Shown here piece by piece: positions 50,186 to 64,000 of a DNA stretch of 64,000 nt. The number at the start of each line of letters is the position of its first letter. The stretch's first letter is position 1. The stretch lies in the NCBI RefSeq assembly GCF_017086365.1, contig NZ_CP070969.1:806001-870000 (forward strand). The letters are read 5' to 3'. This DNA comes from Paenibacillus tianjinensis. Its GTDB lineage: Bacteria > Bacillota > Bacilli > Paenibacillales > Paenibacillaceae. Position numbers and translations under genes: made by a program. Below the pieces are notes generated by a model. That model did not search any database, was not told the origin of the DNA, and saw nothing but the letters and a program-made list of their open reading frames with translations.

Positions 50186-50506
50186 ATGGGCAACCCGATT
50201 AAGGAATTTAAGAACAGTCTCGACGGACTGAAGCAGTCACTGGAAGGTGTCAAGCAGTCTGTAGACGGTTTGAAGGAACCGGTGGATGAAGTGAAGGCCA
50301 ATATTCAGGAGACTGTGGGTGAGGCGAAAACCCGCTTGGATAGCGTGAAGCTGCAGTTTAGACGGATGAAGGCCACCGTGCAGGAGACTAAGGCGGTGCT
50401 GGGCGAGGTTAGGGAGACGATTTCGGCGGCTGGTGAAGTTCTCTACACACAGAAGCGGCATAGAAGATTGCTCAGCCGCAAGAAGAAAGCAAAAACGATT
50501 GGATAA
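50186..50506 (+). CDS. small coiled-coil protein
   Basis: A 106-residue protein with no membrane segment. Residues ~5-75 are repetitive, rich in Lys/Glu/Val with repeating LKQSLEGVKQSVDGLKEPVDEV segments that fit a long amphipathic coiled coil. The C-terminus RHRRLLSRKKKAKTIG is strongly basic. The ribosome site AAGGAGG is directly behind palindromic repeat copy B. It resembles LEA-like or YtxH-type coil proteins without the membrane helix, but I cannot assign a family. It is followed by a strong terminator. Confidence 0.65.
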   Translation: MGNPIKEFKNSLDGLKQSLEGVKQSVDGLKEPVDEVKANIQETVGEAKTRLDSVKLQFRRMKATVQETKAVLGEVRETISAAGEVLYTQKRHRRLLSRKKKAKTIG

Positions 50507-50630: not shown

Positions 50631-52442
50631 TTAATCTGTAGCTGCTTCTTCGTTGAGATTCGCACTCAGGCTCCCCAGTGAATCGACGACAAAGACAGGT
50701 ACATACTGCTCACCGATCTCTGTCTCTACATAATCGTAGCTGTTTTGATACTGGCCGCTCACGACAGCGGGTCCCGTAATGGAACCGACATTACCTTGCA
50801 GGGAGATGTAGCGTCCTTCAGAGCTGCCGACACTTCTGCCTGCAGAATCAATATAGATATCGCAGTTCAGGGTGACCTTCTCGAACGGGTGAAGCTCCAG
50901 CTCGGAAGCAGGAATAAGCGGAGACTCCTGCAGAATCTCAGCAAACTGGTAACTGCCATCCTCACTTAGGCGGTACACTCCGGTCTCGCCAAGCACACCA
51001 TCCCCGGTATCCGCGTTGGTTACGAGGATTGAGTTATCATCCGGCTGCAGTTCATAACTGTCACCGGCAAAGGAGAATAGCAGGGAAATTCCCTCCGGCT
51101 TGATTCGATAGGCCGAAAAAGCGGTCCGCCCGTCCTCCTGGCTTCCTATAGCTAAGACGACCGGCACTTCGGCCATAGCAGACAGCTGATCGTCGAAGGC
51201 TAGCCCGCTAAGCCGTTCGAAGCCGGGAAGGATATCGCCGGTCCGTGTAGAGACTCTGCCCTCATCACTCAGATCGGCGTAATACAGCCTGCCGCTGTTA
51301 TCCGTGCCGGCTACAGCGGCCTTGGCGCCGTAGCGTCCGGAGGCTGTGGCCACATGGATATATCTGCCGGCTTCATCGCCGCCCGGCAGCAGGCGGACCG
51401 GCTCGGCGGTGTTCCAGGCAAGCTGAGCGGCGGCAATCTCAGCTGAAGTATCCTGCAGCTGGGAGAGGCTGGTGTACAGCTGGATGGCCTCAGCATATTC
51501 GCCGCCGCGGATCAGCCGGGCGGCGCTCTTCAGCAGCTTCGCTGCACTGCTGTCGATGAATGCCAGCACTTTGGACGAATCAGGATCAAGTGCTGCAGCT
51601 GCGGCGTAAGTGCGGTAGGCGGCAGCGTGTCCGGCGAAGGCGGATATATGATCACCTTCCAGATCCTTGTCCAGAATAACCTGGGCACTGTCCTCAGCCT
51701 GCTTCTGCACCCACGGCGCCTGATAGCTATGATTGCTGTACGCTTCTATCATGGATAGGGAGCTGTCGAGCATAGGGCCAAAGCTGCCTCCAGCGGCCAG
51801 AACCTTCAGTCTGGCCGTATCATGCGCCTTGAACCCCGTTGCCAGCAGCTTATTCTTGGCATCTGTTCCTCCATAATAAGCATCCGGAATCTGCAGCAGA
51901 TTCCATTTGAACTGATCTCCGTTATCATCACTGCCGCTGCCGTTCTGGCTTGCGGCAAGCTCAGCCAGGAACTGGCTCTTAAACTGCCCGAAGCCTGCCG
52001 TCAGCTGTGCGGAAATGCCTGAATCCTCAGACAGCTGGCGATAATAGGATACATAGGGTCCTCCGCTGATGAAATACTTGGACTTAAGGCTGATCAAGGT
52101 AGCATAGCTCTCCATGAATTCGGCAAAATCCCTGGTCACAAGCTGATCCGTTACCCTTTTTACCAGGGTGTTTAGTCCGCTCCGGATGGCTGAAATCGGC
52201 GCCAGTTCTTCCAGGCGTGCAGCAATTTGCTCCTCTTTATAATGAATGGCCGGGTTATCCGCTGCTTGGCGGTACAGGTTCTCGGCAGCAATAAGATCCC
52301 CGGCGGCATAAAGCCGCTCTGCTTCCTGCACCTCACGGATCTTGTCTCCGATTTGCAGTATCTTCATTCCGAGCAGCGCCAGCATACATATACACAGAAT
52401 AATCATAATATTCCGCAGGGATATGGCTTGTTTGAACGTCAT
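50631..52442 (-). CDS. membrane-anchored protein with repeats, part of the tubulin-like system
   Basis: A 603-residue protein I do not recognise. One N-terminal membrane helix (residues ~13-31, IMIILCICMLALLGMKI) anchors it. Residues ~40-330 are helical with TPR-like pairs (AERLYAAGDLIAAENLYRQA, then GGEYAEAIQLYTSL). Residues ~340-600 are beta-rich with Gly/Asp-rich turns, like a propeller or carbohydrate-binding sheet, and probably lie on the far side of the membrane. It is the last gene of the leftward operon, 55 bp after the zinc-ribbon gene, and opposes the tubulin-like operon. A scaffold role is inferred. Confidence 0.7.
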   Translation of the reverse strand: MTFKQAISLRNIMIILCICMLALLGMKILQIGDKIREVQEAERLYAAGDLIAAENLYRQAADNPAIHYKEEQIAARLEELAPISAIRSGLNTLVKRVTDQLVTRDFAEFMESYATLISLKSKYFISGGPYVSYYRQLSEDSGISAQLTAGFGQFKSQFLAELAASQNGSGSDDNGDQFKWNLLQIPDAYYGGTDAKNKLLATGFKAHDTARLKVLAAGGSFGPMLDSSLSMIEAYSNHSYQAPWVQKQAEDSAQVILDKDLEGDHISAFAGHAAAYRTYAAAAALDPDSSKVLAFIDSSAAKLLKSAARLIRGGEYAEAIQLYTSLSQLQDTSAEIAAAQLAWNTAEPVRLLPGGDEAGRYIHVATASGRYGAKAAVAGTDNSGRLYYADLSDEGRVSTRTGDILPGFERLSGLAFDDQLSAMAEVPVVLAIGSQEDGRTAFSAYRIKPEGISLLFSFAGDSYELQPDDNSILVTNADTGDGVLGETGVYRLSEDGSYQFAEILQESPLIPASELELHPFEKVTLNCDIYIDSAGRSVGSSEGRYISLQGNVGSITGPAVVSGQYQNSYDYVETEIGEQYVPVFVVDSLGSLSANLNEEAATD

Positions 52443-52497
52443 AGTATAGTAGCCCCTTTTTCTAAATTAAAGTATGCCTCCAGCTTCCGGCATCCAT

Positions 52498-53421
52498 TTA
52501 AAAATCGGGGTCCCAGCGGTACTTTGCTTCCCGGACTTCCGCTACCTTGAGGTCCAGGCCGTTCCATGGTTCATAGGGACTGGCGGAGATCAGCTTGGAC
52601 AAGCGCAGAAAGCGGTCCTTAGGCAGATCCTGTATGTATCTTCCGATCATTCCGGAGTAGAGCAGCGCATATCGCTTCAAGCGGACTGCCGCCCCTGCAA
52701 CACTGATCAGGATGGCTACGCCTTTGTCCATTTCAAGAATTTGTGCCTCATAATTCTTAACATAACGCAGCGTACGGTCCTTGATCAGCTCGGGACGGAC
52801 CTTGGCAATCTCGCCGATATACTCGGCGAGCAGCGGCTCGAAATCCTTCAGCAGCAGCTGCTCCAGCTCAAGGTTCATATCCTTGCGCAGCTGGAAGCCG
52901 TGAAGCAGGGCGACGCGCTGGCGGGAGATCCGGTCACCGCGCAGCAGGATAGAAATTTCGCGCAGCTTCTCATAAGCCAGCACATCGTCCTCGCGAAGCA
53001 CAGCTACAGCCTCCTGGCGGTTAATCTCCAGGCCTTCCTTGATGCTGTCGATGTTCCGGCCCAGCAGCTCGTTCAGCGCAAAGAGATTCTCATTCTGCCG
53101 GACCTTCCGCTGCATATAATAGAGGGCTGCGGCCAGGACAGTTCCTCCTGCACCGCATAAGGCCATCTGCTGCAGGCTCTGCCCGAAGTAGACCGCAGCC
53201 AGGGTGAGCAGCGCGATAAGCAGCAGACGGGTATGCATTTTGCGTCCGGCGATGGCCGTGGCCTGCTTCTCAAGCGAAGATAAGGCGGCGCGCCCGCACC
53301 CGCCGCAGCGTTCTTCGCCGAGTGCGGTAAACCGGCCGCAGCGGCGGCAGATCCGCAGCTTATCATAGGCATAACGAGGGACTTTGAACGGCCGGAAGGT
53401 CACGGGTCTTTTCTTATTCAC
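52498..53421 (-). CDS. zinc-ribbon membrane protein, part of the tubulin-like system
   Basis: A 307-residue protein of unknown function. The N-terminus has a zinc ribbon with two knuckles, CRRCGR and CGGCGR, spaced by 12 residues. Two membrane helices follow (residues ~62-95, LLLIALLTLAAVYFGQ and CGAGGTVLAAALYYM). The C-terminal ~200 residues are a cytoplasmic all-helical domain (ENLFALNELLGRNIDSIKEG). The GTG start at 53421 is chosen because GGAGGG lies 10 nt upstream; an ATG at 53439 would overlap that site. It overlaps the preceding 50-residue gene by 8 bp, so the two are coupled. Confidence 0.7.
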   Translation of the reverse strand: MNKKRPVTFRPFKVPRYAYDKLRICRRCGRFTALGEERCGGCGRAALSSLEKQATAIAGRKMHTRLLLIALLTLAAVYFGQSLQQMALCGAGGTVLAAALYYMQRKVRQNENLFALNELLGRNIDSIKEGLEINRQEAVAVLREDDVLAYEKLREISILLRGDRISRQRVALLHGFQLRKDMNLELEQLLLKDFEPLLAEYIGEIAKVRPELIKDRTLRYVKNYEAQILEMDKGVAILISVAGAAVRLKRYALLYSGMIGRYIQDLPKDRFLRLSKLISASPYEPWNGLDLKVAEVREAKYRWDPDF

Positions 53422-53566
53422 GGGTGCCAGTCCCTCCATTCAGTGCGGCCAGCAGCCTCGCGTCAATATCGTCACGGGTAAGCGGCTTCCGCCGCCTTGA
53501 TGCATAAATAGAGATCTGGATTACGGCATAAAGAAACGTAATACCGAGAATAACGTATGAAATCAT
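53414..53566 (-). CDS. 50-residue single-helix membrane peptide
   Basis: A small gene below usual size cutoffs: MISYVILGITFLYAVIQISI then a basic YASRRRKPLTRDDIDARLLA tail. One membrane helix (residues ~3-21) with the tail inside. The start is behind AGGAAGAG. Its stop overlaps the GTG of the zinc-ribbon gene by 8 bp, a coupling that supports it being real and the first gene of the leftward operon. No family is recognised. Confidence 0.7.
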   Translation of the reverse strand: MISYVILGITFLYAVIQISIYASRRRKPLTRDDIDARLLAALNGGTGTRE

Positions 53567-53769
53567 GGAACTCTTCCTTTCACTTGGAAGTATGGCTGCC
53601 TTGAAAGGCTGATAGAATGACGATTCTACCCTTGGCGGCAGCTGTCAGGCGGGCACAAAGTTGAAGTTTACAATGTTTAATTATATCATAATGGCATGCT
53701 ATTTACAGATTTTAGCTAACTGACAACCCCGTCTCTATTACCGAATATAACACAAGAGGAGCCATCTTT

Positions 53770-55593
53770 ATGCTTCGTACACAGCTTTGCCCTAGAACAA
53801 CTAAGAATATGCTTAAGCGGCTAATCCCTGTACTATTGCTGATTCTGTGCCTGTCCGCCTCTCCGTTTGCCGTAATGCGGGCATCGGCAGCCCCGGCGGG
53901 TCCGTCCCGGATTGACGCGGTGCTGCTGATTGATGTCAGCAACTCCATGAATAAGAGCGACAAAAACAATATCGCCGGTGAGGCGATGAAGATGTTTATA
54001 GATATGCTGTCCGCCCAAGGGGACAAGGTCGGGATCGTAGCCTACACCGACAAGGTCCAGCGTGAGAAAGCCCTGCTGCAGATCGGCTCGGCCGGAGACA
54101 AACAGGATTTGAAGGATTTCATCGACGGGCTGGACCGCGGCCCTTATACGGATATTGCCGTTGGTGTGGAAGAAGCCGTCAAAGTGCTGGAGAACGGCAG
54201 TGATCCTGGGCATGAGCCGATGATCGTCATGCTGGCTGACGGTAACAATGATCTCAACGAGTCAGGCAGCCGGACCCAGAGCCAGTCTGACCAGGAGCTG
54301 TCCGCTGCAGTGGAGGCCGCCAAGCAGAAAGGCTATCCGATTTATACTATAGGCCTCAATGCTGATGGCAAGCTGAATAAAAGCATCCTGTCCGGACTGT
54401 CTGATGAGACAGGAGGCAAAGCATTTACTACGGATTCAGCGGATGATCTGCCGCAGATCCTCAGCGAGATTTTTGCCAGTCATTTGAAGCTGAAGGTTGT
54501 GCCTGTGCAGTCGATTACGGCGAACGGCAGCTACCAGGATGTAACGGTCAATGTGCCCAACAGCAGTGTGCTGGAAGCGAATATTTCCATCATGTCGTCA
54601 CAGCCGGTGACCGCGAAGCTGACTGATCCGTCCGGCAAGGAAGTCGCCATTCCGTCAGACGATGTTCTGCTGTCCAAGTCTTCCAGCTATAGTCTGATCA
54701 AGCTGCTCTCACCCGAGCAGGGCGACTGGAAGCTGCAGGTAAAGGGCGTTCCGAAGGATAAGATCGATATTAATCTCGTATTCAACTATGATTTAGAGCT
54801 TAAAATAGATGCGCTGCCGTCCGCCAAGTATCAAAAAGGCGATACCATTGAAATCGTATCCCATCTGTTCAGTAATGGTACTCAGGTAACGCTCAGCAAT
54901 TTGTATCAAGATATGAAGGCGGTGCTGCTTGCCACAGATACCGATACAGGCGCTGTGCAGGAGATTCCGCTGGATAATTCCGGCGCAGAATTTAAAGGCA
55001 GCTTTGAGATCAAGGACAGCCACAGCTACGAGCTCAAGGTCCGTGCGGAGGAGAGCAGCTTCTACCGCGAGAGCGATGTGCTCAAAATCGATGCCAAGAC
55101 CGGGGCTGTAAGCACAGCGCCGGCGGCCACAAGCGGACCTGCCGGCGAAGAGCCTCTTCAGGAGAAAGAAACCTCGAACACCCTGTACTTTATCATCGGC
55201 GGAGTACTGCTGCTGCTCGCTGCGGCTGTTGTGCTGTGGATGCTGCGCAAAAAGGCGACCCGCGGTTTTGTCGGACAACTGGTTGTGGAGGTGCTGGATG
55301 GCAACACCGGGGAAAAGACGTATCCGCAGTATAAGAAGCTGTCTGCCTTCCGGGGCAAATTCACGCTCCATCAGCTGCTGCAGCTTGCGCCTGAACTGAA
55401 GGAGAGTGAGAAGGTCGTATTCACACCCGGTAAAAATGACCGGCTGCTGCTGCGCAGCGGGGAAGGCATTTCCGTTGAGAGATCAGGACGGGCTGCCGAT
55501 ACCTCGCGCGGGCTGGAACTCAAGAGCGGGGACCGTATTTCGGTGCCGCTGCAAACTGTAGATAAGACCATTCTGCTTGAGTATTTAATATAG
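53770..55593 (+). CDS. secreted VWA-domain protein with C-terminal membrane anchor
   Basis: A 607-residue protein, first gene of the rightward operon. It has a signal peptide (residues ~15-40), then a von Willebrand A domain with the metal site DVSNSM (Asp55, Ser57, Ser59), a Thr near TDIAVGVEEA and the last Asp in VMLADGNND. Beta-sandwich domains follow. A membrane helix (residues ~471-493) leads to a C-terminal cytoplasmic domain of ~115 residues. It can bind a partner outside the cell and signal to the cytoplasm. It is 13 bp before the tubulin-like gene. The ribosome site is AGAGGAG. Confidence 0.85.
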   Translation: MLRTQLCPRTTKNMLKRLIPVLLLILCLSASPFAVMRASAAPAGPSRIDAVLLIDVSNSMNKSDKNNIAGEAMKMFIDMLSAQGDKVGIVAYTDKVQREKALLQIGSAGDKQDLKDFIDGLDRGPYTDIAVGVEEAVKVLENGSDPGHEPMIVMLADGNNDLNESGSRTQSQSDQELSAAVEAAKQKGYPIYTIGLNADGKLNKSILSGLSDETGGKAFTTDSADDLPQILSEIFASHLKLKVVPVQSITANGSYQDVTVNVPNSSVLEANISIMSSQPVTAKLTDPSGKEVAIPSDDVLLSKSSSYSLIKLLSPEQGDWKLQVKGVPKDKIDINLVFNYDLELKIDALPSAKYQKGDTIEIVSHLFSNGTQVTLSNLYQDMKAVLLATDTDTGAVQEIPLDNSGAEFKGSFEIKDSHSYELKVRAEESSFYRESDVLKIDAKTGAVSTAPAATSGPAGEEPLQEKETSNTLYFIIGGVLLLLAAAVVLWMLRKKATRGFVGQLVVEVLDGNTGEKTYPQYKKLSAFRGKFTLHQLLQLAPELKESEKVVFTPGKNDRLLLRSGEGISVERSGRAADTSRGLELKSGDRISVPLQTVDKTILLEYLI

Positions 55594-55606
55594 AGGGGGA
55601 GAACCT

Positions 55607-58600
55607 ATGAAACCGGTAGTAAGAGAGCATATACAGCAACTCGATGTATCACTTGGCGGGGGGATCGTCAGCGACAAAATCAGAGTAGATACGATCGACA
55701 ACCCGATCCTGATCATCGGCCTCGGCGGCACGGGCATCGACGCCCTGTTGCGGCTGAAATACCAGATTAACCGCCGCTTTAAGCTGCCCGAAGATCCGCT
55801 CTCCAAGAAGAAGCGCGATAAACCGGATAACGTGGAGTTCCTGGCTTTTGAGACGAATGAACAGGACCGCGGCAAAAAATACAAAGGGATCGGCCTTGAT
55901 CCCCAGAACGAGTTCGTGCTGCTGGCTAACGCGGAAATCGGCGGCCTGCTGCAAAACAGAAGTATTCTCGAGCCCTACATTACCGAATGGCTGTCGCCGG
56001 AGCTGAGCATTACGGATGGTATGAACGGCGCCGCCGGTGTACGCCAGGCCGGGCGCCTGCTGCTGTTCACCAAGATCAATCAGGTCGTAGGTGCAATCGA
56101 TAAGAAGATCAAGACGCTGTCCGTCGGCACCAGCAAGAAGCTGATGGTGTTCCTGCTCACCGGCTTATCCGGAGGTACGGGAAGCGGAGCTTTTCTGGAT
56201 ATCGCCTATATCGTGCGCGGCATTATTGAACGCGACTACGGCGCGGCAGGCATAGACCGGGTCAACACACTGGGCTACCTGTTCACACCGGACGTCAATC
56301 TGGCGAATAAAAGCCTCAGCGAACACACCCGCGAATATATCCGCAAGAACGGTTATGCGGCGCTCAAAGAGCTGGATTACTGGATGAACGTGGACAGCCG
56401 CGGTGAGCGGTTCCGCCAGCAGTACGGCAATATTCTCACCGTGAATTCGCCGCTGCCGCCGTTCAATCTGTGCCATCTGATCTCGGCAACTAATACCGAG
56501 GGCAAGCTGCTGGAGAATGCCTATGATTACTGCATGAACGTAACGGCAGAGAACATCACCAACTTCATGGCCAGTGAGGAAAAAGCTTCGGGCGAGGAAT
56601 TCGCCATCCATGACTATATCAGCAACATCCGTACGAACATTGCGCAGATGAACAAGACGTACCCTGCCAATTATGAATACAACATTATCGGGGCTTCGTC
56701 GGCCGTGCTGCCGATTGAGGAAATGACCACCTACCTCGCCTACCGGCTGTTCGACAAAATGGACAAGATGTTCCAGCAGGCACCCGGCCAGGAGGATGTG
56801 GAGAAGTTCGCGCGCAAGCTTGGAATCGATCTCGATACTATGGTCAAAACATTCGAATCCCGCGTACCCGAGCCGCTGCCCGGCTATCAGAACAGCGAGC
56901 GGCTCAGCCACGCCAATGTGATCAAGAACCAGGTCGTGGATATGGACACCGAGCTGGAGCAGAACTTCCTGTCCCGGGCGCGCGAAGAATATATTAAATC
57001 CAAAAAACAGCTGCCCGGCGAAATTACCGGACGTTTCAGTGAGGAGCTGGAGCGCATCTTCCTGCATCCCGAGCAGGGGCCGTTCTATGTCTCGCGGCTG
57101 CTCTACACCGAGAAGGGCTTCTGCATCCTGAAGCTGATCCAGTCCTATATCGAAGCGCTGCGTGAGAGTCTTCTGCGCCTGCCGCGTGATATTGAGACGG
57201 CTCAGGACAGCGCGGAAGAGAAGCTCGGCGATGCGCGCAGCGCTTTTGTCTCCAAGGAGAAGAAGAAGAACGCCTACATCGAAGCCAAGATCAATGAGTA
57301 CTGGCTGCATGCCGATGTGGAGCGCACAGAGCAGATGATCCAGTTCTATGAGGATCTGTTTGAGCTGCTGAATGAGGAGAATAACCGGATTTACGGCGTA
57401 TTTACAGAGATTCTCAGCGCGCTCAGCTCGATTTTCGAGAAGAACGGGGACATTCTGCTGAGCGGGGAAGAGCAGGCGGATCACAAAGGCAACAAAACCT
57501 ACTATTGGAATATCGTCAACGTGCCGGATATTTCCGCGACGATCTCCAAGGTGATGGACCAGAAGGACGGCGACGACCTCATCCGTGACTTCACGCGGGA
57601 AATGCTTAAGCATTCCGGACGCTGGGTCAGAGAGCAGGAGATCGATATTGTCCGTTCCATCTCCGAGTTCCTGAGCGACAAGTTCGGGGATCTGATTACA
57701 CGTTCCATGGAAGATTTCCTGGTGATGAAATACGGCCGCGAGGAGCCGCTGGATAAATTCGTGGAGCGGATAATCGCAGGCAGGCTGGATGAGGATGCGG
57801 TGCCGATTTTTCATCTCAGCAACAGCTCTGGCAGCCTGCACTTCCCGTCATGGGGCTTCGTGTCCGTGCCGGTCAAAGCGCCGGGCATCCTGAAAGGGAT
57901 CCGCAATTACCAGAATAACGCACTCGGCAAATCACAGTTTACGGTGAAGGAGAGCGAGGTTAAGAACCGGATTTTCTGGCTCAATACCCGCAACGGGGTG
58001 CCGCTCTTCGTCTATACACCGCTCCGGGTATTCGAGGAGAATTATGAACGGACGATCCTCGACAAGGAAGGCATCGGCCGCCATCTGGTAATGACCGATA
58101 AGAACAACTGGACCTATCTGCCGTCTCCGATTCCGGAGAAATCATGGGGTGACACCTATGTTAACCCGCGTGTCCGTGAATACAACGCCAGAGTGCGGGC
58201 TGATTTCGCCCGGGCGCTGAAGAGCGGAGTCATCATCGAGAAGGGCCAGGATGAAAATACAAGCAGCCGTTTCTCGGTCATCTTCACCAAGCCGTTTGAT
58301 CTGGAGAAGCTGCTGGGCGGCTATGATCTGCAGCTGGGCTCATCCCGTCCGAATCTCGGGGAAGTGAAGAAGGCAGCTGATGAGCTGCGAATGCTGCATG
58401 AGAACGGCCTGGAGCGTGAAGGGGTCAAGGATATTTTCGGGAGCATCAACATGGAGCTGGCCCAGGAGAACCTGATCCGCTCACCGCAGCTGATCACCCG
58501 TGTCCGCGAGGAGCTGCTCAAATATGACGCCCTGACAGCCAAAGCAGCTGAGCTGGACGCTCTGCTCCGTCAATATCTCGACGAAGATAAGTGGTTGGAC

Positions 58601-58996
58601 CAGTTCATCGAGGCTCTCTATACCGATACCATTGTCAAAAAAGGCGCACTTTATGTCTATGACCGTGACGAGGAAGAAGAGGCCTGGGAGCCGTTCGCTA
58701 ATTTAATGAAAGAACGCAGCTATGTGGAATATGCCGTATACCGCCATTTCCGCGAACTGGATGAGAAGAGCCGCAGTGTGCTGCTGCGCAAAGCGGCGCG
58801 ACGCTCCGGAGAAATGACGGCAGCTGAAGATGTAACCCCGCTGCTGTATAAGCTGGAGGGTCTGTATGTCTCCTTCCTGGAGGCACGCGACAGCCTGGAA
58901 TACGAGCGGGTAGAGCATGCGAACGGGGACGAAATGTACGGCTTCTACAAGAGCCTGACCGGCAAGCTCGGCAGTATCCGCAGGAAGCTGAAGTAA
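55607..58996 (+). CDS. tubulin/FtsZ-like GTPase (Tubulin_2 type)
   Basis: A 1129-residue cytoplasmic protein. The N-terminal ~330 residues carry the tubulin fold: strand 1 PILIIGLGGTGIDALLRL (G1, residues 38-43), and the tubulin signature TGLSGGTGSGAF (Gly189-Gly194), the GTP-binding loop. The H7-like region is near FNLCHLISATNTEG (residues 286-299). The C-terminal ~790 residues are mostly helical, with coiled-coil parts, and have no known domain. This kind of FtsZ-like family in operons with VWA genes was described by Makarova and Koonin (2010) as a possible membrane-remodelling system. The first gene ends 13 bp upstream and the next starts 4 bp downstream. Confidence 0.85.
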   Translation: MKPVVREHIQQLDVSLGGGIVSDKIRVDTIDNPILIIGLGGTGIDALLRLKYQINRRFKLPEDPLSKKKRDKPDNVEFLAFETNEQDRGKKYKGIGLDPQNEFVLLANAEIGGLLQNRSILEPYITEWLSPELSITDGMNGAAGVRQAGRLLLFTKINQVVGAIDKKIKTLSVGTSKKLMVFLLTGLSGGTGSGAFLDIAYIVRGIIERDYGAAGIDRVNTLGYLFTPDVNLANKSLSEHTREYIRKNGYAALKELDYWMNVDSRGERFRQQYGNILTVNSPLPPFNLCHLISATNTEGKLLENAYDYCMNVTAENITNFMASEEKASGEEFAIHDYISNIRTNIAQMNKTYPANYEYNIIGASSAVLPIEEMTTYLAYRLFDKMDKMFQQAPGQEDVEKFARKLGIDLDTMVKTFESRVPEPLPGYQNSERLSHANVIKNQVVDMDTELEQNFLSRAREEYIKSKKQLPGEITGRFSEELERIFLHPEQGPFYVSRLLYTEKGFCILKLIQSYIEALRESLLRLPRDIETAQDSAEEKLGDARSAFVSKEKKKNAYIEAKINEYWLHADVERTEQMIQFYEDLFELLNEENNRIYGVFTEILSALSSIFEKNGDILLSGEEQADHKGNKTYYWNIVNVPDISATISKVMDQKDGDDLIRDFTREMLKHSGRWVREQEIDIVRSISEFLSDKFGDLITRSMEDFLVMKYGREEPLDKFVERIIAGRLDEDAVPIFHLSNSSGSLHFPSWGFVSVPVKAPGILKGIRNYQNNALGKSQFTVKESEVKNRIFWLNTRNGVPLFVYTPLRVFEENYERTILDKEGIGRHLVMTDKNNWTYLPSPIPEKSWGDTYVNPRVREYNARVRADFARALKSGVIIEKGQDENTSSRFSVIFTKPFDLEKLLGGYDLQLGSSRPNLGEVKKAADELRMLHENGLEREGVKDIFGSINMELAQENLIRSPQLITRVREELLKYDALTAKAAELDALLRQYLDEDKWLDQFIEALYTDTIVKKGALYVYDRDEEEEAWEPFANLMKERSYVEYAVYRHFRELDEKSRSVLLRKAARRSGEMTAAEDVTPLLYKLEGLYVSFLEARDSLEYERVEHANGDEMYGFYKSLTGKLGSIRRKLK

Positions 58997-59000
58997 GCCT

Positions 59001-61421
59001 ATGATTAGAACAGAAGCGCTTGTATATGCCGAACAATACGCGGCGCAGGAAGAGGCGCAGCACAGCAAGGGGGATGGCCGCAGCAGCATTCATTACCCTG
59101 CGCTGTTCCTGTTCCTCGGCGACAAAGTAACCCCGGCCATCGGCCCGGTACTGGAGCGGTGTGAGCGGAAATGGGACAATGCCGCTGGCGTTCTGGCGCT
59201 GCATGCGGCGGCTCAAGGAAGCAGCGAGCAGGGCAGCGTCAAAGGAAATAGCGTGGGTAAGGATCATACCGGCGGTGGCGGCAGGGAACGGGTGATGACC
59301 ATGGGTCTGCCGGACACGGCAGGCCGTGACCCCCGCACGGTCCGCCAAGAGGTCTACCGTAAGTTCCACGAAGACAGCCGTTATCTGGCCGGGATGAACC
59401 GGACGCTCCGGCGCCTCGGCAACAGTATAGCGGACTATGGACGGCTGTATTCTTCCTTCGACGTTATCCATCTCTCTATCATTACGCGGGTCGACGACCC
59501 GCTTAATGTGCTGCTGCCAGAAGTTGCCCTGCTGGCCCGTGCGGTGCTCGGACAGTCGTTCAAGTCGGTGCAGACCGACCTATACGTGCTGATCAACGAG
59601 CGGGAGCAGGGGGACAACTTCGGATATTCCAGCTCGGTAGGGCTGGCTTTTCTGCGTGAGCTGGACGGAATGCAGCTGCCTGGTTATACCTTTAATGCTC
59701 CGCTTCTGGTTACGGAGGAGGGGTTGTCCATTCCGGTAACCCATGGTCCATCTGCGCTGTTTGATCTTGTCTACCTGCTCTCGGATAAAAACGAGCGCGG
59801 CATGATGTCGGCGGGCGGCATGGAAGACAACTATGAGATTATCGCACACATCAGTCTGCTCAAGAACCGGGTGCGGCCATCGGCGGACCAGGCCACCGGA
59901 CAAGGCGGCTATAACAATATGACGTTCAAAAGCGGCATCCGCGGCAGCACGGGCAGAGAAGGGTATGCTTCCGCCGGCTTCTCCGCGGTGCGCAGGCCGA
60001 GCAAGCCTATTGCTTTAGCGGTGCTGTACCATGCTTTTCATTACCTTGCCGCAGAGCTGCGCGGGGGCAGCAGCTGGAGTCTGCGTGAGCGGCAGGCCCT
60101 GCTTGGCCTTACTCCCGAAGCGCTGCGCGAACGGGCCGCCGGCTTCTTGCCGGAGGAGGCGGGGATCGCCGAGATGACCGGGCTGATGAGCCACGGCCGC
60201 CCGTCCTTCAGCGAGCTGAAGCCGCTGACGCTGCGCGAAGCGGAACAGCTGCTGTTCGGGGGCGGCGGCGAGGCGTATTTCCGCAGCAACTTTGCGGATG
60301 TATCCGCTGCGCGGGCTGCGGCCCTTGACCCTGCCCGCGAATGGTCCGCCGTACTGGCGGCTCAGGAGCAGTCTGCTGCGCCAGTGACGTTCTACCAGCT
60401 GGCGGAGTGGACGGCCGAGCAGGGCGAGGCCGGAGGCAGTGTGCTGAACGCGCTGCGCCAGCACATGGGCGGCCTCCGCTCGGCAATCGCCTCGGCCGAG
60501 GAGGAGCTGGACCGGCTCTACAGTGAGACCGTAGACCGCCAGCCCTTCCAGCGGGTGCCGCTGCTTGACAAGCGGACCGTGCGTAATTTCATTCATTATT
60601 TATTTGATAGTATCTACAGCAGGAAATATGAGATTCTGCGTCTTAAGCTGGAGCTGGACTTGGCGGTGAGCTATGATACTGCGCTGGAGCAGCTGCATGC
60701 AGAGAGCAAAGCCAAGGTGCAGATGATGGAGGCGCTGGATGAAGAGCTGCGCAGCCTGGTACTGGCAAGCACCTTGCGCTCGAGCGAAGCGGTGGACCAG
60801 AATATCATGGAGTACTACCGCACCGTGACCGCGGAAGTCATGCAGGATATTCAAACCAGGCGCGGTGCAGGTATCTTCGCAAGCGACCGGTTTATGGGCA
60901 GCATCTCGGAGCTGCTCCGCCAGGGCGGCACCGCTGTTATCCGCCGCCTGATCGACGTATGCAGGAGAGAGCTGCTGACGGCGGAGCCGTTCGCACTGCC
61001 CTTCGAAGAGGAGCTGCTGCGGCGGGCGAATGTCGCAGCTGCGTATGAGAACCGCGAGATTGTCTCCAAGGAGGAGCTGTTCAAGCGGCTGTACCTCAGT
61101 CTCGAGGAAGGGGCCAGCATCAATGTCCGCCTGTTCGAATATACACAGGAGCACCGTCATGAAGAGAAATACTTCTTCGGCGACAGCACCTCCGAATTTC
61201 TGCGCTATGCCCTGAGCGCAGACGAGACGACCCGGATCTACCGGCTGGGCGTTGTCCATGAGCAGCGCAGAAGCGGTGTCGAGAAGCTGAACCTGATGGG
61301 CGGCTTCCATCTGGAGGACCTGCTCTATTACCGTAACGGCAAGGTCTATTATGAAACCTACGTCCAGAATGGTTACCAGCTGCATGGCGTGGAAGAGGAG
61401 CAGCTGCCGGTGCTTCGGTGA
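59001..61421 (+). CDS. degenerate tubulin-like paralogue (no GTP-binding motifs)
   Basis: An 806-residue protein I do not recognise by family name. By eye it is collinear with the N-terminal part of the upstream tubulin-like protein: YPALFLFLGDKVTPAIG against NPILIIGLGGTGIDALL; HLSIITRVDDPLNVLLPEVA (DDPLNV at 165-170) against FLLTGLSGGTGSGAFLDIA; VGLAFLRELDGM against NGYAALKELDYW; and FDLVYLLSDKNERG (254-267) against FNLCHLISATNTEG. The GTP-binding glycines are lost. The C-terminal ~400 residues are helical with coiled coil. It starts 4 bp after the GTPase gene, so equimolar expression and a GTPase/pseudo-GTPase complex are plausible. Confidence 0.65.
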   Translation: MIRTEALVYAEQYAAQEEAQHSKGDGRSSIHYPALFLFLGDKVTPAIGPVLERCERKWDNAAGVLALHAAAQGSSEQGSVKGNSVGKDHTGGGGRERVMTMGLPDTAGRDPRTVRQEVYRKFHEDSRYLAGMNRTLRRLGNSIADYGRLYSSFDVIHLSIITRVDDPLNVLLPEVALLARAVLGQSFKSVQTDLYVLINEREQGDNFGYSSSVGLAFLRELDGMQLPGYTFNAPLLVTEEGLSIPVTHGPSALFDLVYLLSDKNERGMMSAGGMEDNYEIIAHISLLKNRVRPSADQATGQGGYNNMTFKSGIRGSTGREGYASAGFSAVRRPSKPIALAVLYHAFHYLAAELRGGSSWSLRERQALLGLTPEALRERAAGFLPEEAGIAEMTGLMSHGRPSFSELKPLTLREAEQLLFGGGGEAYFRSNFADVSAARAAALDPAREWSAVLAAQEQSAAPVTFYQLAEWTAEQGEAGGSVLNALRQHMGGLRSAIASAEEELDRLYSETVDRQPFQRVPLLDKRTVRNFIHYLFDSIYSRKYEILRLKLELDLAVSYDTALEQLHAESKAKVQMMEALDEELRSLVLASTLRSSEAVDQNIMEYYRTVTAEVMQDIQTRRGAGIFASDRFMGSISELLRQGGTAVIRRLIDVCRRELLTAEPFALPFEEELLRRANVAAAYENREIVSKEELFKRLYLSLEEGASINVRLFEYTQEHRHEEKYFFGDSTSEFLRYALSADETTRIYRLGVVHEQRRSGVEKLNLMGGFHLEDLLYYRNGKVYYETYVQNGYQLHGVEEEQLPVLR

Positions 61422-61472
61422 GTAAACTTATTTCAGGCAGGGCCGGGGGAAGCCCCTGCCCTTGCCCTTCTG

Positions 61473-61662
61473 CTTCTATTGCAGATAGTACATTAGAATA
61501 GAGTGATAAATCCTTATTAGAAGATTCTATTGCATTTTGTACAGCAGAATCAGAACAATCTCGGTTTTAGAGCGTTTATTCTGTTTTCTATTGTAGAGAA
61601 TGCAGTAGAATTGAATCTAAATCATCTTATTAGGCATTCTGTTGCACTAATTGCAATAGAAT
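61473..61662. promoter_or_regulatory. array of four phased 27-bp palindromes
   Basis: Four copies of an inverted repeat ATTCTRTTGCA-N5-TGCARTAGAAT lie at 61473-61499, 61524-61550, 61585-61611 and 61636-61662. Every copy has the same 5-base gap. Their starts are 51, 61 and 51 bp apart, so all face the same side of the helix; the whole array is two ~112-bp units. No T-runs follow the arms, and arms are not perfectly paired, so protein-binding sites fit better than terminators. The array is AT-rich in GC-richer DNA, 36 bp before the VWA membrane protein gene. Confidence 0.75.
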
Positions 61663-61698
61663 TGTTTTGCCAGTTTCCTCGGGAAAGGATGAGTATCG

Positions 61699-62979
61699 AT
61701 GCAGCGAAAAATCAATCTGCTCTTATTGTGCTTCAGCCTGCTGGGCGGCGGAATAGCTTTTGTCCTCGGCGAGCTGCTGCTCGGCCGCAGGCCTTATGAT
61801 CTGCCGTCAATTCTGATTATTGCCATTTATTTCGCCATTGTGGCCCTTGGCGTCGGACTGGGCGCCCTGCTTGCCGAGATGATCTCGCCGAGACTGAACG
61901 GCTTATCATGGAAGCAGCGTTATCTTGGCATGTCGTGGAAGCTGCTGCCGCTGACGGTGGTGCTGCTGTTCGGTGTCGGTGCGCTGACAGAGTTTGTGTA
62001 TGAGCTGAACTTCGGCGGTGTGAAGCCGGTTAAGAATGTTGTCATGGTCATCGACGACTCCGGCAGCATGCAGCAAAGCGATCCAGGTAACAGCCGGTAC
62101 GCAGCGGCCGAGGCACTGGTGCAGCAGATGGATAAGGATAACCAGGTGGCTGTAGTGACCTTTAGCCAGGATGCATCAGTCGTTCAGCCGCTGATCTCAC
62201 TCAAGAGTCCCGAAAACCGCGAGAAGGTATCGGCAGTAATCCGTAGTCTGCAGACGACAGATGGCGGAACGAATATCAGCGGCGCCCTCAATGAGGCGAT
62301 GAACGTGATTAACAGTGAAGGCCAGACCAGCCGCGGAGCCATGGTAATCATGCTGTCTGACGGCTTCAGCGAGTTTGATACGTCCAGAGAGCTGAGCGAA
62401 TATGTGAGCCGCGGGATTGCTGTGAACACCATCGGTCTTGCGCTGGATGACCAGTCCGGTTCCCGCCTGCTGCAGGATATTGCCTCCGTTACAGGCGGGC
62501 AGTATTACGATGTTACAGATGCGGACCGGCTTGGCGATGTGTTCCAGCAAATTTATGACCGGCTGGGTGACCGTACCCTGCTGACCGAACGCAGTGATGC
62601 TACAGCAGACAGTCCTTATTACGCAGTTGTGCGGATCTTGGCACTGATTCTGATCGGCACCGCGCTCGGCATCGGTCTTGGCATTGTATTTGATAACCGT
62701 CATCTGGCCAAAAGCTTCGGGTTCGGCGGCTGGGTAGCAGGACTATGTGCCGGTCTGATTCTTGAATTCGGACTCAGCGGACAATCCTTCGGCGATGCGC
62801 TGATCCGCCTGATCGCTCTGCTGGTGCTGGCAGCAATCCTCTCTCTCTTCACCTATGTGGTGCCGGTAGGCGAAGGCCGCCTGTCCCGCAGGGGGAGAAG
62901 AGAGGCAGCCGCTGCTGCGCCATCTTCTTCAGAGGGTTTCCATTCGCCCCGCAGAAACCGGGGCAGCAAGGGATTTTAA
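61699..62979 (+). CDS. polytopic membrane VWA-domain protein
   Basis: A 426-residue membrane protein. Three membrane helices in residues ~5-25, ~37-60 and ~82-100 precede a VWA domain (residues ~112-290) with metal site IDDSGSM (Asp119, Ser121, Ser123), Thr in TDGGTNISGAL and Asp in MLSDGFSEF. Three more helices follow (residues ~304-390) and a basic, Ser/Arg-rich tail. The VWA domain faces outside if the N-terminus is inside. The ribosome site is GGAAAGGATGAG. It lies behind the palindromic array and belongs to the tubulin-like operon by direction and content. Confidence 0.85.
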   Translation: MQRKINLLLLCFSLLGGGIAFVLGELLLGRRPYDLPSILIIAIYFAIVALGVGLGALLAEMISPRLNGLSWKQRYLGMSWKLLPLTVVLLFGVGALTEFVYELNFGGVKPVKNVVMVIDDSGSMQQSDPGNSRYAAAEALVQQMDKDNQVAVVTFSQDASVVQPLISLKSPENREKVSAVIRSLQTTDGGTNISGALNEAMNVINSEGQTSRGAMVIMLSDGFSEFDTSRELSEYVSRGIAVNTIGLALDDQSGSRLLQDIASVTGGQYYDVTDADRLGDVFQQIYDRLGDRTLLTERSDATADSPYYAVVRILALILIGTALGIGLGIVFDNRHLAKSFGFGGWVAGLCAGLILEFGLSGQSFGDALIRLIALLVLAAILSLFTYVVPVGEGRLSRRGRREAAAAAPSSSEGFHSPRRNRGSKGF

Positions 62980-63018
62980 CCGGAGTTTAGAATGTGAATG
63001 TGAAAGGAGCTTACAGAC

Positions 63019-63654
63019 ATGAGGTACGCCGAAGATAATGCCTCCGCACCGGCAATTACCGATGTGACTGCCCGGGTGGAGGACCGGTTCTGTACGCTTA
63101 GGTGGCGCTGGCCGGACGGCGTACAGGCGGTCTATATCCATAAGGCATCAGCAGAAATGCCGGATCACGGAGAGCTTCCGCCTTCCGGCATGAAGCTGTA
63201 CACCCGCGAGGAGTATAAGGCGAACAACGGATACCGGGAACGGATGGATGACATCGGCCTGATTGTCTATACCGTCTATGCCCGGCTGGAAGGCAACGGG
63301 GAGATTGTGCTGGTTCGCCAGCGGGGTGGTGCTAATCAAACGACTGTCAGCGCGGGCAAGGCGAGAATTTATTATTCCATAGTCCAGAAAAAAGCGTTAT
63401 TCGGCAAACAAAAAACGGTACATATGACGATTACCGCGGAAACGCCGGTGCCGAAGGATGTACTCTGCTACGTCAAAAAAAGAGGCGGCTATCCGGCCTC
63501 CAGGGAGGACGGGGTCCTCTTCCATTTCGTGCAGGATTTTGCTGCCGGACGGAATGCGCTCCCGCCGATTGAGATCGGCAAAGAGGACTTTGTACGGATC
63601 TTTTTCACCGACGGCCGCAAGTACGGACTGTATTATGAGCTGGTGCCGGAGTAG
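63019..63654 (+). CDS. beta-rich protein of the tubulin-like operon
   Basis: A 211-residue protein I do not recognise. Residues ~10-100 resemble a fibronectin type III-like sandwich: ITDVTARVEDRFCTLRWRWP, then GLIVYTVYARLEGNGEIVLV. The second half is also beta-rich (ARIYYSIVQKKALFG, VHMTITAETPVPKDV). No signal peptide, cysteine pair or membrane helix is seen, so it is probably cytoplasmic and binds other members of the system. Ribosome site AAAGGAG. It is 39 bp after the polytopic VWA gene and 140 bp before a zinc-ribbon gene. Confidence 0.65.
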   Translation: MRYAEDNASAPAITDVTARVEDRFCTLRWRWPDGVQAVYIHKASAEMPDHGELPPSGMKLYTREEYKANNGYRERMDDIGLIVYTVYARLEGNGEIVLVRQRGGANQTTVSAGKARIYYSIVQKKALFGKQKTVHMTITAETPVPKDVLCYVKKRGGYPASREDGVLFHFVQDFAAGRNALPPIEIGKEDFVRIFFTDGRKYGLYYELVPE

Positions 63655-63706
63655 GCCGGGGCAGCAGGCTCCTGGTGAGCGCGTTTAAGCGATCCGGTTG
63701 AGCTGT

Positions 63707-63778
63707 CAAAACTTAAGTTTATGCTTCCGTAGTGAGTTTTGTCCGGAGCATTTCAATGGAGGTTACGCTCACAAAACT
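63707..63778 (+). promoter_or_regulatory. leader with alternative pairings before the zinc-ribbon gene
   Basis: CAAAACTTAAG (63707-63717) and ACAAAACT (63771-63778) can both pair with AGTTTTGT (63735-63742), so the two hairpins exclude each other. The second one borders the ribosome site AAGGAGG (63781-63787). A third stem, ATGCTTCCG with CCGGAGCAT (one bulge), frames the shared strand. This looks like a structured leader that could switch access to the ribosome site. It is inference from pairing only. Confidence 0.45.
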
Positions 63779-63794
63779 TTAAGGAGGATGAGAG

Positions 63795-64000
63795 ATGTCT
63801 TTTTTCAGCCGCTTTATGAAGAAAAACCAGCCGCAGCCGCGGCCGCTTTTTTATGATATTGTGTGCCCTTACTGCTTCACGAAGTTTCAGCCGGAGGATG
63901 TGGTCTTCCGGGCGATGCACAGCCGTGAAGATGATGAGAACTATGCGCTCGGCGAAGATGATGCGCTGAACAAATATCGCGAGCGCTTCGGCCTCGATAC
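63795..64000 (+). CDS. zinc-ribbon protein (partial, runs off the window)
   Basis: The first 68 residues of a protein that continues past the right edge. It starts MSFFSRFMKKNQPQPRPLFYD and has a zinc-knuckle motif CPYCFTKF at residues ~23-30; the rest is acidic (SREDDENYALGEDDALNKY). The second cysteine pair, if present, is outside the window. The ribosome site AAGGAGG is followed by a good ATG. It probably belongs to the tubulin-like operon; what follows the ribbon cannot be seen. Confidence 0.75.
   Translation, partial: MSFFSRFMKKNQPQPRPLFYDIVCPYCFTKFQPEDVVFRAMHSREDDENYALGEDDALNKYRERFGLD

Follow-up and report, generated by a model that had tools for sequence, protein, structure and literature searches.

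A Tubulin_2/FtsZl1 cassette with VWA proteins, a DO-GTPase and a GAP1 protein, conserved in Paenibacillus

The literature describes Tubulin_2 proteins as sparse and scattered (PMC9871819), and the system to which they belong carries two differing proposals. Makarova and Koonin (2010; Biol Direct 5:33, PMC2875224) described an operon in which the FtsZ-like protein FtsZl1 accompanies a VWA protein and a GTPase, some of the latter fused to a Cys-rich domain, and proposed a role in membrane remodelling. Kaur, Burroughs, Iyer and Aravind (2020; eLife 9:e52696, PMC7159879) described a firmicute GAP1-N2 tubulin system, which they read as a biological conflict system. No experimental work on the system was among the matches listed by a literature search run without most subscription journals.

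Composition of the cassette

The window analysed here is a 64,000-nucleotide stretch of Paenibacillus tianjinensis DNA. Its ORF list places eight open reading frames on both strands between 50631 and 63654, where an earlier note made from the sequence had put them, and the gaps around the 1129-residue protein TUB (13 bp after VWA1, 4 bp before P806) agree with the 4-13 bp given there (Table 1). The last gene of the stretch, starting at 63795, runs past the end of the window. The earlier note had called it a zinc-ribbon protein; the ribbon stands, in the form of two CxxC pairs, but it is the start of a 420-residue DO-GTPase, and because the window stops there, both this GTPase and the following GAP1 protein had been missed. 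Together these two identify the cassette, which comprises nine or ten neighbouring chromosomal genes in Paenibacillus, as the firmicute GAP1-N2 tubulin system; its core is already known from Kaur et al. (2020).

Table 1. Features of the cassette, with positions in the window.
Feature	Position	Strand	Length	Description
P603	50631..52442	-	603 aa	One N-terminal TM (3-21), remainder probably extracellular; accessory
P313	52498..53439	-	313 aa	Zinc ribbon, TM region and C-terminal domain; conserved cassette member
P50	53414..53566	-	~50 aa	Single-pass membrane microprotein, TM 2-20; reading frame overlaps P313
Promoter-like block	53660..53703	.		Ultraconserved; + strand -35 TTGAAG 53661-53666, -10 TATCAT 53684-53689; - strand -10 TATAAT 53685-53680
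VWA1	53770..55593	+	607 aa	Signal/TM, VWA with DxSxS, further ectodomain, TM, inner tail 496-607
TUB	55607..58996	+	1129 aa	Tubulin_2/FtsZl1 GTPase; PF13809 E 9.7e-76
P806	59001..61421	+	806 aa	Second, degenerate tubulin-like protein without G-rich loops (sequence profiles)
VWA2	61699..62979	+	426 aa	Polytopic membrane protein, VWA domain, DxSxS
P211	63019..63654	+	211 aa	Conserved, without TM; perhaps stands where the published system has its FNIII component
DO-GTPase start	63795..64000	+	420 aa in full	Would end at 65057 (L002:796-2058)
GAP1-N2 protein	would-be 65054-68074, beyond the window		1006 aa	L002:2055-5075; C-terminal TM

TUB matched PF13809 at 255.8 bits against a cut-off of 27 and is counted as a member of Tubulin_2, the family also named FtsZl1, which upholds the FtsZ-like/VWA association that the earlier note had taken from Makarova and Koonin. 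The two tubulin motifs it had seen, GLGGTG and GGTGSG, are kept in TUB of 71/71 loci, where the GTP-binding loops are intact and resemble T1 and T4 of canonical FtsZ. In contrast to canonical FtsZ, TUB did not match the FtsZ C-terminal domain in Pfam, and since FtsZ was found in 100/100 genus genomes, TUB is an extra protein. A profile match between TUB and FtsZ covered T4 alone, at E 0.0026 and 11.5% probability, and the canonical T6/T7 elements of FtsZ-type filaments were not identified in TUB, as Makarova and Koonin likewise report for FtsZl1. Against PDB sequences, the TUB and P806 profiles each gave 0 matches at E<=1.

Sequence profiles suggest, at moderate strength, that P806 has the fold of a second, degenerate tubulin, and to that degree the pseudo-tubulin proposed in the earlier note is supported. 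The P806 profile matched that of TUB at E 6e-5 (65% probability), and PF13809 was matched by 29 of the 52 rows of the P806 alignment (51 distinct, one duplicate) at E<=0.05, the best at 3e-6, while P806 itself had no Pfam match. The motif GG[TS]G occurred at 0/71 P806 loci, the G-rich loops having been lost. Adjacency of TUB and P806 was strict across the genus loci and those of other family genera; such a partner, present here at 71/71 loci, is undescribed for FtsZl1 in the accessible text of Makarova and Koonin (PMC2875224).

Pfam VWA domains were recovered in both proteins so described by the earlier note (E 1.9e-16 in VWA1, 2.1e-21 in VWA2), with DxSxS present at 71/71 loci for each. Hydropathy gives VWA1 TM segments at 18-36 and 474-492, a topology that places its VWA domain outside, and its inner tail is 70% identical in 15 deep-clade genomes. 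VWA2 has five TM segments by the same measure. The membrane linkage that the earlier note had given the set is upheld. P211, described there as beta-rich, was found in all 71 loci and is perhaps a candidate for the FNIII-repeat component that Kaur et al. describe. Pfam bore out neither suggestion: across 17 members it matched neither FNIII nor any other family consistently. Nor did Pfam confirm in VWA1 the YtkA domain of their system (PMC7159879), which was absent from the best 25 of 29 families.

The DO-GTPase combines two CxxC pairs with a P-loop GTPase, reaching 27.3 bits for PF19993 (cut-off 27, E 3.4e-6) and, for PF19975, 26.9, just below the cut-off of 27; its P-loop and D.[AS]GE are kept at 71/71 loci and both CxxC pairs at 70/71. 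Directly downstream lies the GAP1-N2/GAP1-M protein (PF20013 E 1.2e-39, PF20014 E 1.3e-24). Kaur et al. (PMC7159879) describe the same arrangement, a zinc-ribbon DO-GTPase upstream of a GAP1-N2 protein with TM segment and polar tail, and the same firmicute theme of two tubulins and two VWA proteins, one of them polytopic with an extracellular VWA domain; the second tubulin is recognised here by profile only.

Conservation in the genus and family

TUB is single-copy in 93/100 genus genomes; it lies in several pieces in G029, G044, G053 and G066 and is cut by a contig end in G090. We compared 71 loci, of which 51 are from the genus (50 fetched relatives, picked for long contigs, were drawn from the 92 other TUB-positive genomes) and 20 are TUB-positive loci of other family genera. 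Gene order, on which the earlier note had staked its reading, was identical in 51/51 and 20/20 of these, respectively. It was the same in 72/72 named loci of >=23 kb, which remained after 8 shorter ones among 80 were dropped and which overlap in species with the other locus sets. Because the same order recurs in all three sets, the cassette is not a chance arrangement. A GAP1 match was present in 18/20 of the 20-kb stretches from other genera, and we assume that in the other two the gene lies beyond the stretch edge. Across the family, 125/295 genomes gave no match to TUB.

The position of TUB relative to FtsZ was fixed in 34/39 contigs compared. In 16 genomes with a median FtsZ identity of 92%, the GTPase domain of TUB reaches 92.6%. 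Both FtsZ comparisons omit some genomes, such as G059 and G066. The DO-GTPase domain is 91% identical in the deep clade. In the seven TUB-less genus genomes, searches for TUB, GAP1-N2, P603 and VWA1 found no GAP1-N2 or P603 either, and no close match to VWA1. In the genus, the cassette looks like a slowly changing core chromosomal set, and this conservation argues for a constant cell function, at least in the Paenibacillus lineage. As Paenibacillus is a culturable soil genus with a strongly constrained, single-copy TUB, the question of its role is open to simple deletion. Further handles are the pseudo-tubulin fixed beside the active tubulin, the conserved microprotein, and the promoter-like block, which is traceable in any Paenibacillus transcriptome.

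The divergent arm and the promoter-like block

The divergent arm of P50 and P313 belongs to the cassette. P50 was found at 71/71 loci by combined searches (BLAST alone missed 6/51 genus loci), and P313 adjoins VWA1-TUB in 71/71 loci and 72/72 named loci. P313 carries CxxC..CxxC at 70/71 loci, with no precomputed Pfam domain among 120 listed of its 196 relatives. Alignments of P211, P603 and P313 matched no clear Pfam family and gave weak zinc-ribbon and TPR signals, among them weak TPR_2 matches in 4/21 P603 members at E<=0.05. P603 was matched in 82/100 genus genomes, one of them doubtful (E 9e-4).

The earlier note had called the set a richer version of the described operons. This holds for the divergent 50- and 313-residue genes, which, like a shared promoter, go unmentioned in the accessible text of Kaur et al. 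(PMC7159879), but not for the tubulins, VWA proteins, zinc-ribbon GTPase and GAP1, which are already there. What is added here is the genus-wide core conservation, the P50-P313 arm and the shared promoter-like block.

Both arms begin at this one block, the geometry of which is that of a predicted bidirectional promoter. TTGAAS-17-TATCAT plus ATTATATCAT occurs in 51/51 genus loci; outside the genus, 3/20 family loci carry it in full and 12/20 carry TATATCAT. The 44-bp block is 97% identical in 34 genomes chosen by match, compared with 64% at third codon positions of TUB, the ungapped comparison with its requirement for >=36/44 matching bases slightly inflating the former and slightly deflating the flanks, while leaving the 51/51 count unaffected. 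A regulon search of its own genome with the promoter motif, at <=3 mismatches, gave this single site. The opposed -10 boxes overlap at 53680-53689, with predicted starts at 53673 and 53696. Bidirectional promoters in bacteria have overlapping opposed -10 elements and starts 10, 18 or 23 bp apart (PMC12825309); the present block is alike in its -10 boxes and 23-bp spacing, but its starts are predicted from sequence and its -35 boxes are weak (rightward best match 4/6 in 51/51; leftward 4/6 in 22 and 3/6 in 29). A generic promoter scan of the region called 10 sites against 8.4 +/- 2.8 in shuffles, which is chance level, and did not call the leftward promoter.

Proposed function and alternatives

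We tentatively favour, at somewhat less than even confidence, the reading that the locus is the version of the GAP1-N2/DO-GTPase tubulin system found in Paenibacillaceae, a core cassette for regulated, envelope-linked tubulin assembly. TUB would bind GTP and assemble in the cytoplasm, probably together with P806, as one active and one inactive subunit. The set may, as the earlier note suggested, build a cell-envelope filament. VWA1, with its presumed metal-dependent extracellular VWA domain, TM segment and inner tail, could hold the assembly at the membrane with VWA2, P313 and P50. The DO-GTPase and the membrane-anchored GAP1 might then form a switch that permits or dissolves assembly, triggered when the extracellular VWA domains or ectodomains meet a ligand or wall strain, and a single bidirectional promoter would couple expression of the membrane and tubulin arms. 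Counted against this proposal are the 7/100 genus genomes without TUB and the few with it fragmented, along with the 125/295 family genomes that gave no match, the moderate P806 match, the failure to find T6/T7 elements in TUB, the fast evolution of peripheral parts, the weak -35 boxes and the chance-level promoter scan. A more speculative version, which we consider quite improbable, would make the cassette a counterpart of the integrin-cytoskeleton link in function, not descent: extracellular MIDAS-type VWA domains linked across the bilayer to one active and one nucleotide-dead tubulin, which would form an obligate heteropolymer gated by DO-GTPase and GAP1, the whole serving Paenibacillus housekeeping and not being a defence island.

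An anti-invader or abortive-infection-like role, as in Kaur et al. (2020), in which GAP1 together with the DO-GTPase would define a threshold, FNIII and VWA parts would sense the invader and the tubulin assembly would act as effector, seems to us rather unlikely. The components equal the published theme, GAP1-N2 is associated with a multicellular habit in 601/904 organisms (Table 1 of PMC7159879), and the peripheral parts, among them the GAP1 tail, evolve fast in the deep clade (median identity 40% for GAP1 and 35% for the ectoprotein P603, the presence or absence of which follows lineage), as this reading would also expect. However, Kaur et al. called their neighbourhoods mobile (PMC7159879), whereas in the genus it is nearly fixed and largely syntenic, with a slow core and no recognised swapping of effectors; a single copy, constant order and FtsZ-like conservation of the GTPase make it a poor fit to a mobile, hypervariable conflict label. 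Inspection by eye of 15 loci without P603 recognised no replacement effector; in one of them, G497, a secreted 583-aa protein is next on the same strand. The PADLOC library of 2023, which may not include the GAP1-N2 tubulin system, matched none of the eight window proteins or GAP1 at E<=0.1, and the DO-GTPase weakly (0.022 and 0.046).

A machine that remodels membrane or forms vesicles, its tubulin polymer bending the bilayer, was suggested by Makarova and Koonin (2010), whose operon of FtsZl1, VWA protein and Cys-rich-domain GTPase (PMC2875224) is recovered here alongside many TM partners. One reviewer's objection to the 2010 paper was that VWA proteins are outside and FtsZl1 inside (PMC2875224); VWA1 spans the membrane, which removes the objection without thereby showing bending. 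No membrane-bending-specific element was recognised in the cassette, and we regard this role as unlikely. Most doubtful is a platform for surface-protein export or assembly, in which the GTPases and a tubulin scaffold would place secretion: a reviewer of the 2010 paper suggested transport or signalling (PMC2875224) and the cassette has VWA ectodomains and the anchored P603, but no channel or translocase domain is among its Pfam matches.

Other candidates were rejected. Plasmid-segregating TubZ is set aside, the cassette being chromosomal with no DNA-binding domain among its above-cut-off Pfam matches, and the presence of FtsZ throughout the genus dismisses replacement of the division protein. 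A defence island is dismissed too: PADLOC matches in the cassette stop at the two weak ones of the DO-GTPase, and of the 10 flanking proteins only three were matched, one a group II intron RT, another UvrD-type and the third ABC-type. The motility protein CmoA of Paenibacillus NAIST15-1 is a different VWA protein, of 1064 aa with IPT/TIG domains (PMC5072692). Phage origin is rejected: TUB, P806, DO-GTPase, GAP1 and P313 lacked any PHROG match at E<=0.01, and the four PHROG families that VWA2 matched align with its VWA region, three of these families having unknown function.

Composition of the cassette

The source genome, a Paenibacillus to judge from its relatives, is a single contig of 6.27 Mb, of which the window covers bases 806001-870000, and the ORF positions given in an earlier note agree with the ORF list computed from the window. 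In a Pfam search TUB matched PF13809 (Tubulin_2) with an E value of 9.7e-76, its match to the general tubulin model PF00091 (E 0.0089) lying below that model's cut-off, and PF00092 was matched by both VWA1 and VWA2. The last gene of the window had been read as a zinc-ribbon protein; two CxxC pairs are indeed present, but the sequence is actually the start of a 420-aa P-loop DO-GTPase continuing beyond the window (L002), which falls barely above the Pfam cut-off of one DO-GTPase family and barely below that of the other. Its gene overlaps by 4 bases that of GAP1, a 1006-aa GAP1-N2/GAP1-M protein (L002).

Features of the cassette within the window
Feature	Position (strand)	Size	Description	Basis
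P603	50631-52442 (-)	603 aa		
P313	52498-53439 (-)		zinc-ribbon membrane protein	
P50	53414-53566 (-)		membrane microprotein	
Promoter-like block	53660-53703	44 bp	between the two divergent arms	conservation
VWA1	53770-55593 (+)	607 aa	VWA protein	
TUB	55607-58996 (+)	1129 aa	Tubulin_2/FtsZl1 protein	
P806	59001-61421 (+)	806 aa	candidate pseudo-tubulin partner	
VWA2	61699-62979 (+)	426 aa	polytopic VWA protein	
P211	63019-63654 (+)	211 aa		
DO-GTPase	from 63795 (+)	420 aa	cut by window end	

The FtsZl1 family was defined by Makarova and Koonin 2010 (PMC2875224), who describe it together with VWA proteins and with a GTPase that in some cases carries a fused DnaJ-like cysteine-rich domain, and who propose a role in membrane remodelling. 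DO-GTPases and GAP1 were defined by Kaur et al. 2020 (PMC7159879), and the firmicute GAP1-N2 systems described there contain two tubulin proteins, two VWA proteins, one of them with several TM helices and an extracellular VWA domain, and a GAP1 bearing a polar C-terminal extension. The present locus fits this description, and we consider the identity of the cassette near certain. Tubulin_2 proteins were put to one side in a 2023 phylogeny (PMC9871819), which described their occurrence as sparse and scattered.

P806 itself had no Pfam match. In a profile-profile comparison its alignment was collinear with that of TUB (columns 222-422 to TUB 237-432; E 6e-5, probability 65%). PF13809 was matched at E<=0.05 by 29 of the 52 members of the P806 alignment (best 3e-6), and a search of these 52 sequences with the TUB profile placed 10 above the inclusion threshold, two being the same protein. 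Among the 120 matches listed, two P806 relatives carry a precomputed PF13809 label. The GG[TS]G motif occurred in none of 71 P806 sequences; TUB has both loops in every locus. The comparisons suggest, with moderate confidence, that P806 is a pseudo-tubulin. In public records, many of its relatives among the matches listed bear the name "transcription initiation factor TFIID", for which the sequence of P806 gives no support.

Two TM segments are predicted by hydropathy in VWA1 (18-36 and 474-492), which would put the VWA domain outside and the conserved 110-aa tail inside. By the same measure there are five TM segments in VWA2, a single clear one in P313 and one each in P50, P603 (at the N-terminus) and GAP1 (766-784), with none in TUB, P806, P211 or DO-GTPase. 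The MIDAS motif DxSxS is intact in VWA1 and VWA2 at all 71 loci.

Conservation and distribution

Gene order was compared at 50 more genus loci (of 92 other TUB positives) and at 20 loci from nine other genera of the family. The arrangement P313(-), P50(-), then VWA1-TUB-P806-VWA2-P211-DO-GTPase-GAP1(+) was identical in 51/51 genus loci and in 20/20 loci of the other genera, GAP1 being seen in 18 of the latter; BLAST missed P50 in six of the 51, where an ORF of the same kind was found. Among named loci, the 72 with a length of 23 kb or more all kept the full order, and 36 of them have P603. Genes flanking the cassette are conserved among near relatives only, as is an adjoining 106-aa coiled-coil-like small ORF (window 50186-50506). 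At 15 loci lacking P603 the genes after P313 look unrelated when judged by eye; at G497, one of the 15, a secreted protein of 583 aa is encoded next, in the same direction. At two other loci, G036 (L102) and G015 (L104), P603 is kept but is separated from P313 by two inserted forward genes of about 240 and 428 aa. The P806-VWA2 gap (window 61422-61698, with a hairpin at 61636-61662) ranges from 5 to 2344 bp across the 51 genus loci and in G046 (L049:1-500, 1888-1995) holds tandem repeats of ~51 bp with palindromes.

Sequence constraint was measured against the window proteins in 16 genomes with FtsZ identities of 88-94% (median 92). Median identities were 84% for DO-GTPase, 80% for TUB (92.6% for its GTPase domain by itself), 63% for VWA1, 53% for VWA2, 52% for P806, 51% for P211, 46% for P313, 40% for GAP1 and 35% for P603 (15 genomes). 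TUB is exactly 1129 aa long in 48/51 loci (first-start ORF). In 15 deep-clade genomes the regions with at least 70% identity were TUB 1-30 (97), the TUB GTPase domain (92) and TUB middle (78), the DO-GTPase domain (91), C-terminal part (79) and zinc-ribbon part (73), and the VWA domain (72) and inner tail (70) of VWA1. Through these regions the three proteins could relay a signal across the membrane.

TUB was found in 93/100 genus genomes, one copy each except for broken or contig-cut copies, GAP1-N2 in 92, P603 in 82 (one a doubtful match, E 9e-4) and FtsZ in all 100. GAP1-N2 and P603 were likewise absent from all seven TUB-less genomes, which held no close VWA1 (32% at best, in G010; weak generic VWA matches in three; none in three). 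Judged by the four genes tested, the cassette is thus either there in full or missing altogether. G010 (L264), with a 713-aa VWA1-like reading frame at 32% identity and a weak PF13809 match (2.1e-5), possibly holds a divergent version of the system.

At family level 166/295 genomes passed the Tubulin_2 cut-off, with matches in 12/19 genera; a phylum sample gave matches in 9/299 genomes, five from the same family as the source. Two TUB peptide patterns, whose reach is limited to close relatives, were scanned against 84,980 species genomes and 309 loci were confirmed; the best 80 belong to Paenibacillus or to records with the label Bacillus sp. FJAT. One distant Bacillota genome (L182) has 1192-aa Tubulin_2, 887-aa VWA-like, 653-aa TM and 1465-aa proteins in one run, near kinase- and PP2C-like ORFs; all names but Tubulin_2 were assigned by eye.

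Region between the divergent arms

Across 34 genomes, which were picked for their match to it, the 44-bp block has 97% identity; TUB third codon positions reach 64%, and the ungapped flanks of the block 50% and 30%. TTGAAS-17-TATCAT and ATTATATCAT are present in 51/51 genus loci, and the full motif in only 3/20 loci of other family genera. The -10 boxes of the two directions, TATAAT leftward and TATCAT rightward, overlap; assuming 7 bp from -10 to start, the two arms would start near 53673 (-) and 53696 (+), 23 bp from each other, a spacing that is common for bidirectional promoters (PMC12825309). Two results speak against such a promoter: the -35 boxes are weak (rightward 4/6, leftward 3-4/6), and a generic promoter scan called only the rightward of the two opposed sites, with promoter-like sites no more frequent in the region than expected by chance. 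No second copy of the block occurs in the genome at <=3 mismatches.

Function and neighbouring genes

For the function of the cassette we favour a possible envelope mechanism because of the constraint, the fixed order, the transmembrane architecture and the probable co-regulation of the two arms: a membrane-linked, GTP-regulated tubulin pair would be coupled to extracellular VWA domains, with DO-GTPase and GAP1 acting as its switch and the TUB machinery serving a constant envelope task. The main alternative is a conflict system; Kaur et al. 2020 (PMC7159879) class firmicute GAP1-N2 systems as NTP-dependent conflict systems in mobile neighbourhoods. The distance from FtsZ to TUB is 0.37-0.49 of the contig, with the same orientation, in 34/39 contigs compared; in five deep-clade members it is 0.12-0.30, with TUB inverted. 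Such conservation and placement fit a core cassette that is inherited vertically and has moved at least once, and do not fit a mobile module. This pattern falls short of proving a non-conflict role, and a conflict function would still agree with the fast evolution of GAP1 and P603. A PADLOC search gave no clear match for the cassette, a result that counts only weakly for or against conflict.

Past the cassette, L002:5889-15233 encodes an SLH protein of 1721 aa that contains four DUF4430 stretches, and a second DUF4430 protein, together with CbiQ/ABC/ECF S-component (ECF-transporter) genes that resemble an uptake set for a corrinoid or vitamin, the substrate being inferred. Elsewhere in the window, a group II intron (39291-41087; Rfam RF02001, RF01998, RF00029) contains a reverse transcriptase ORF at 39617-41008.
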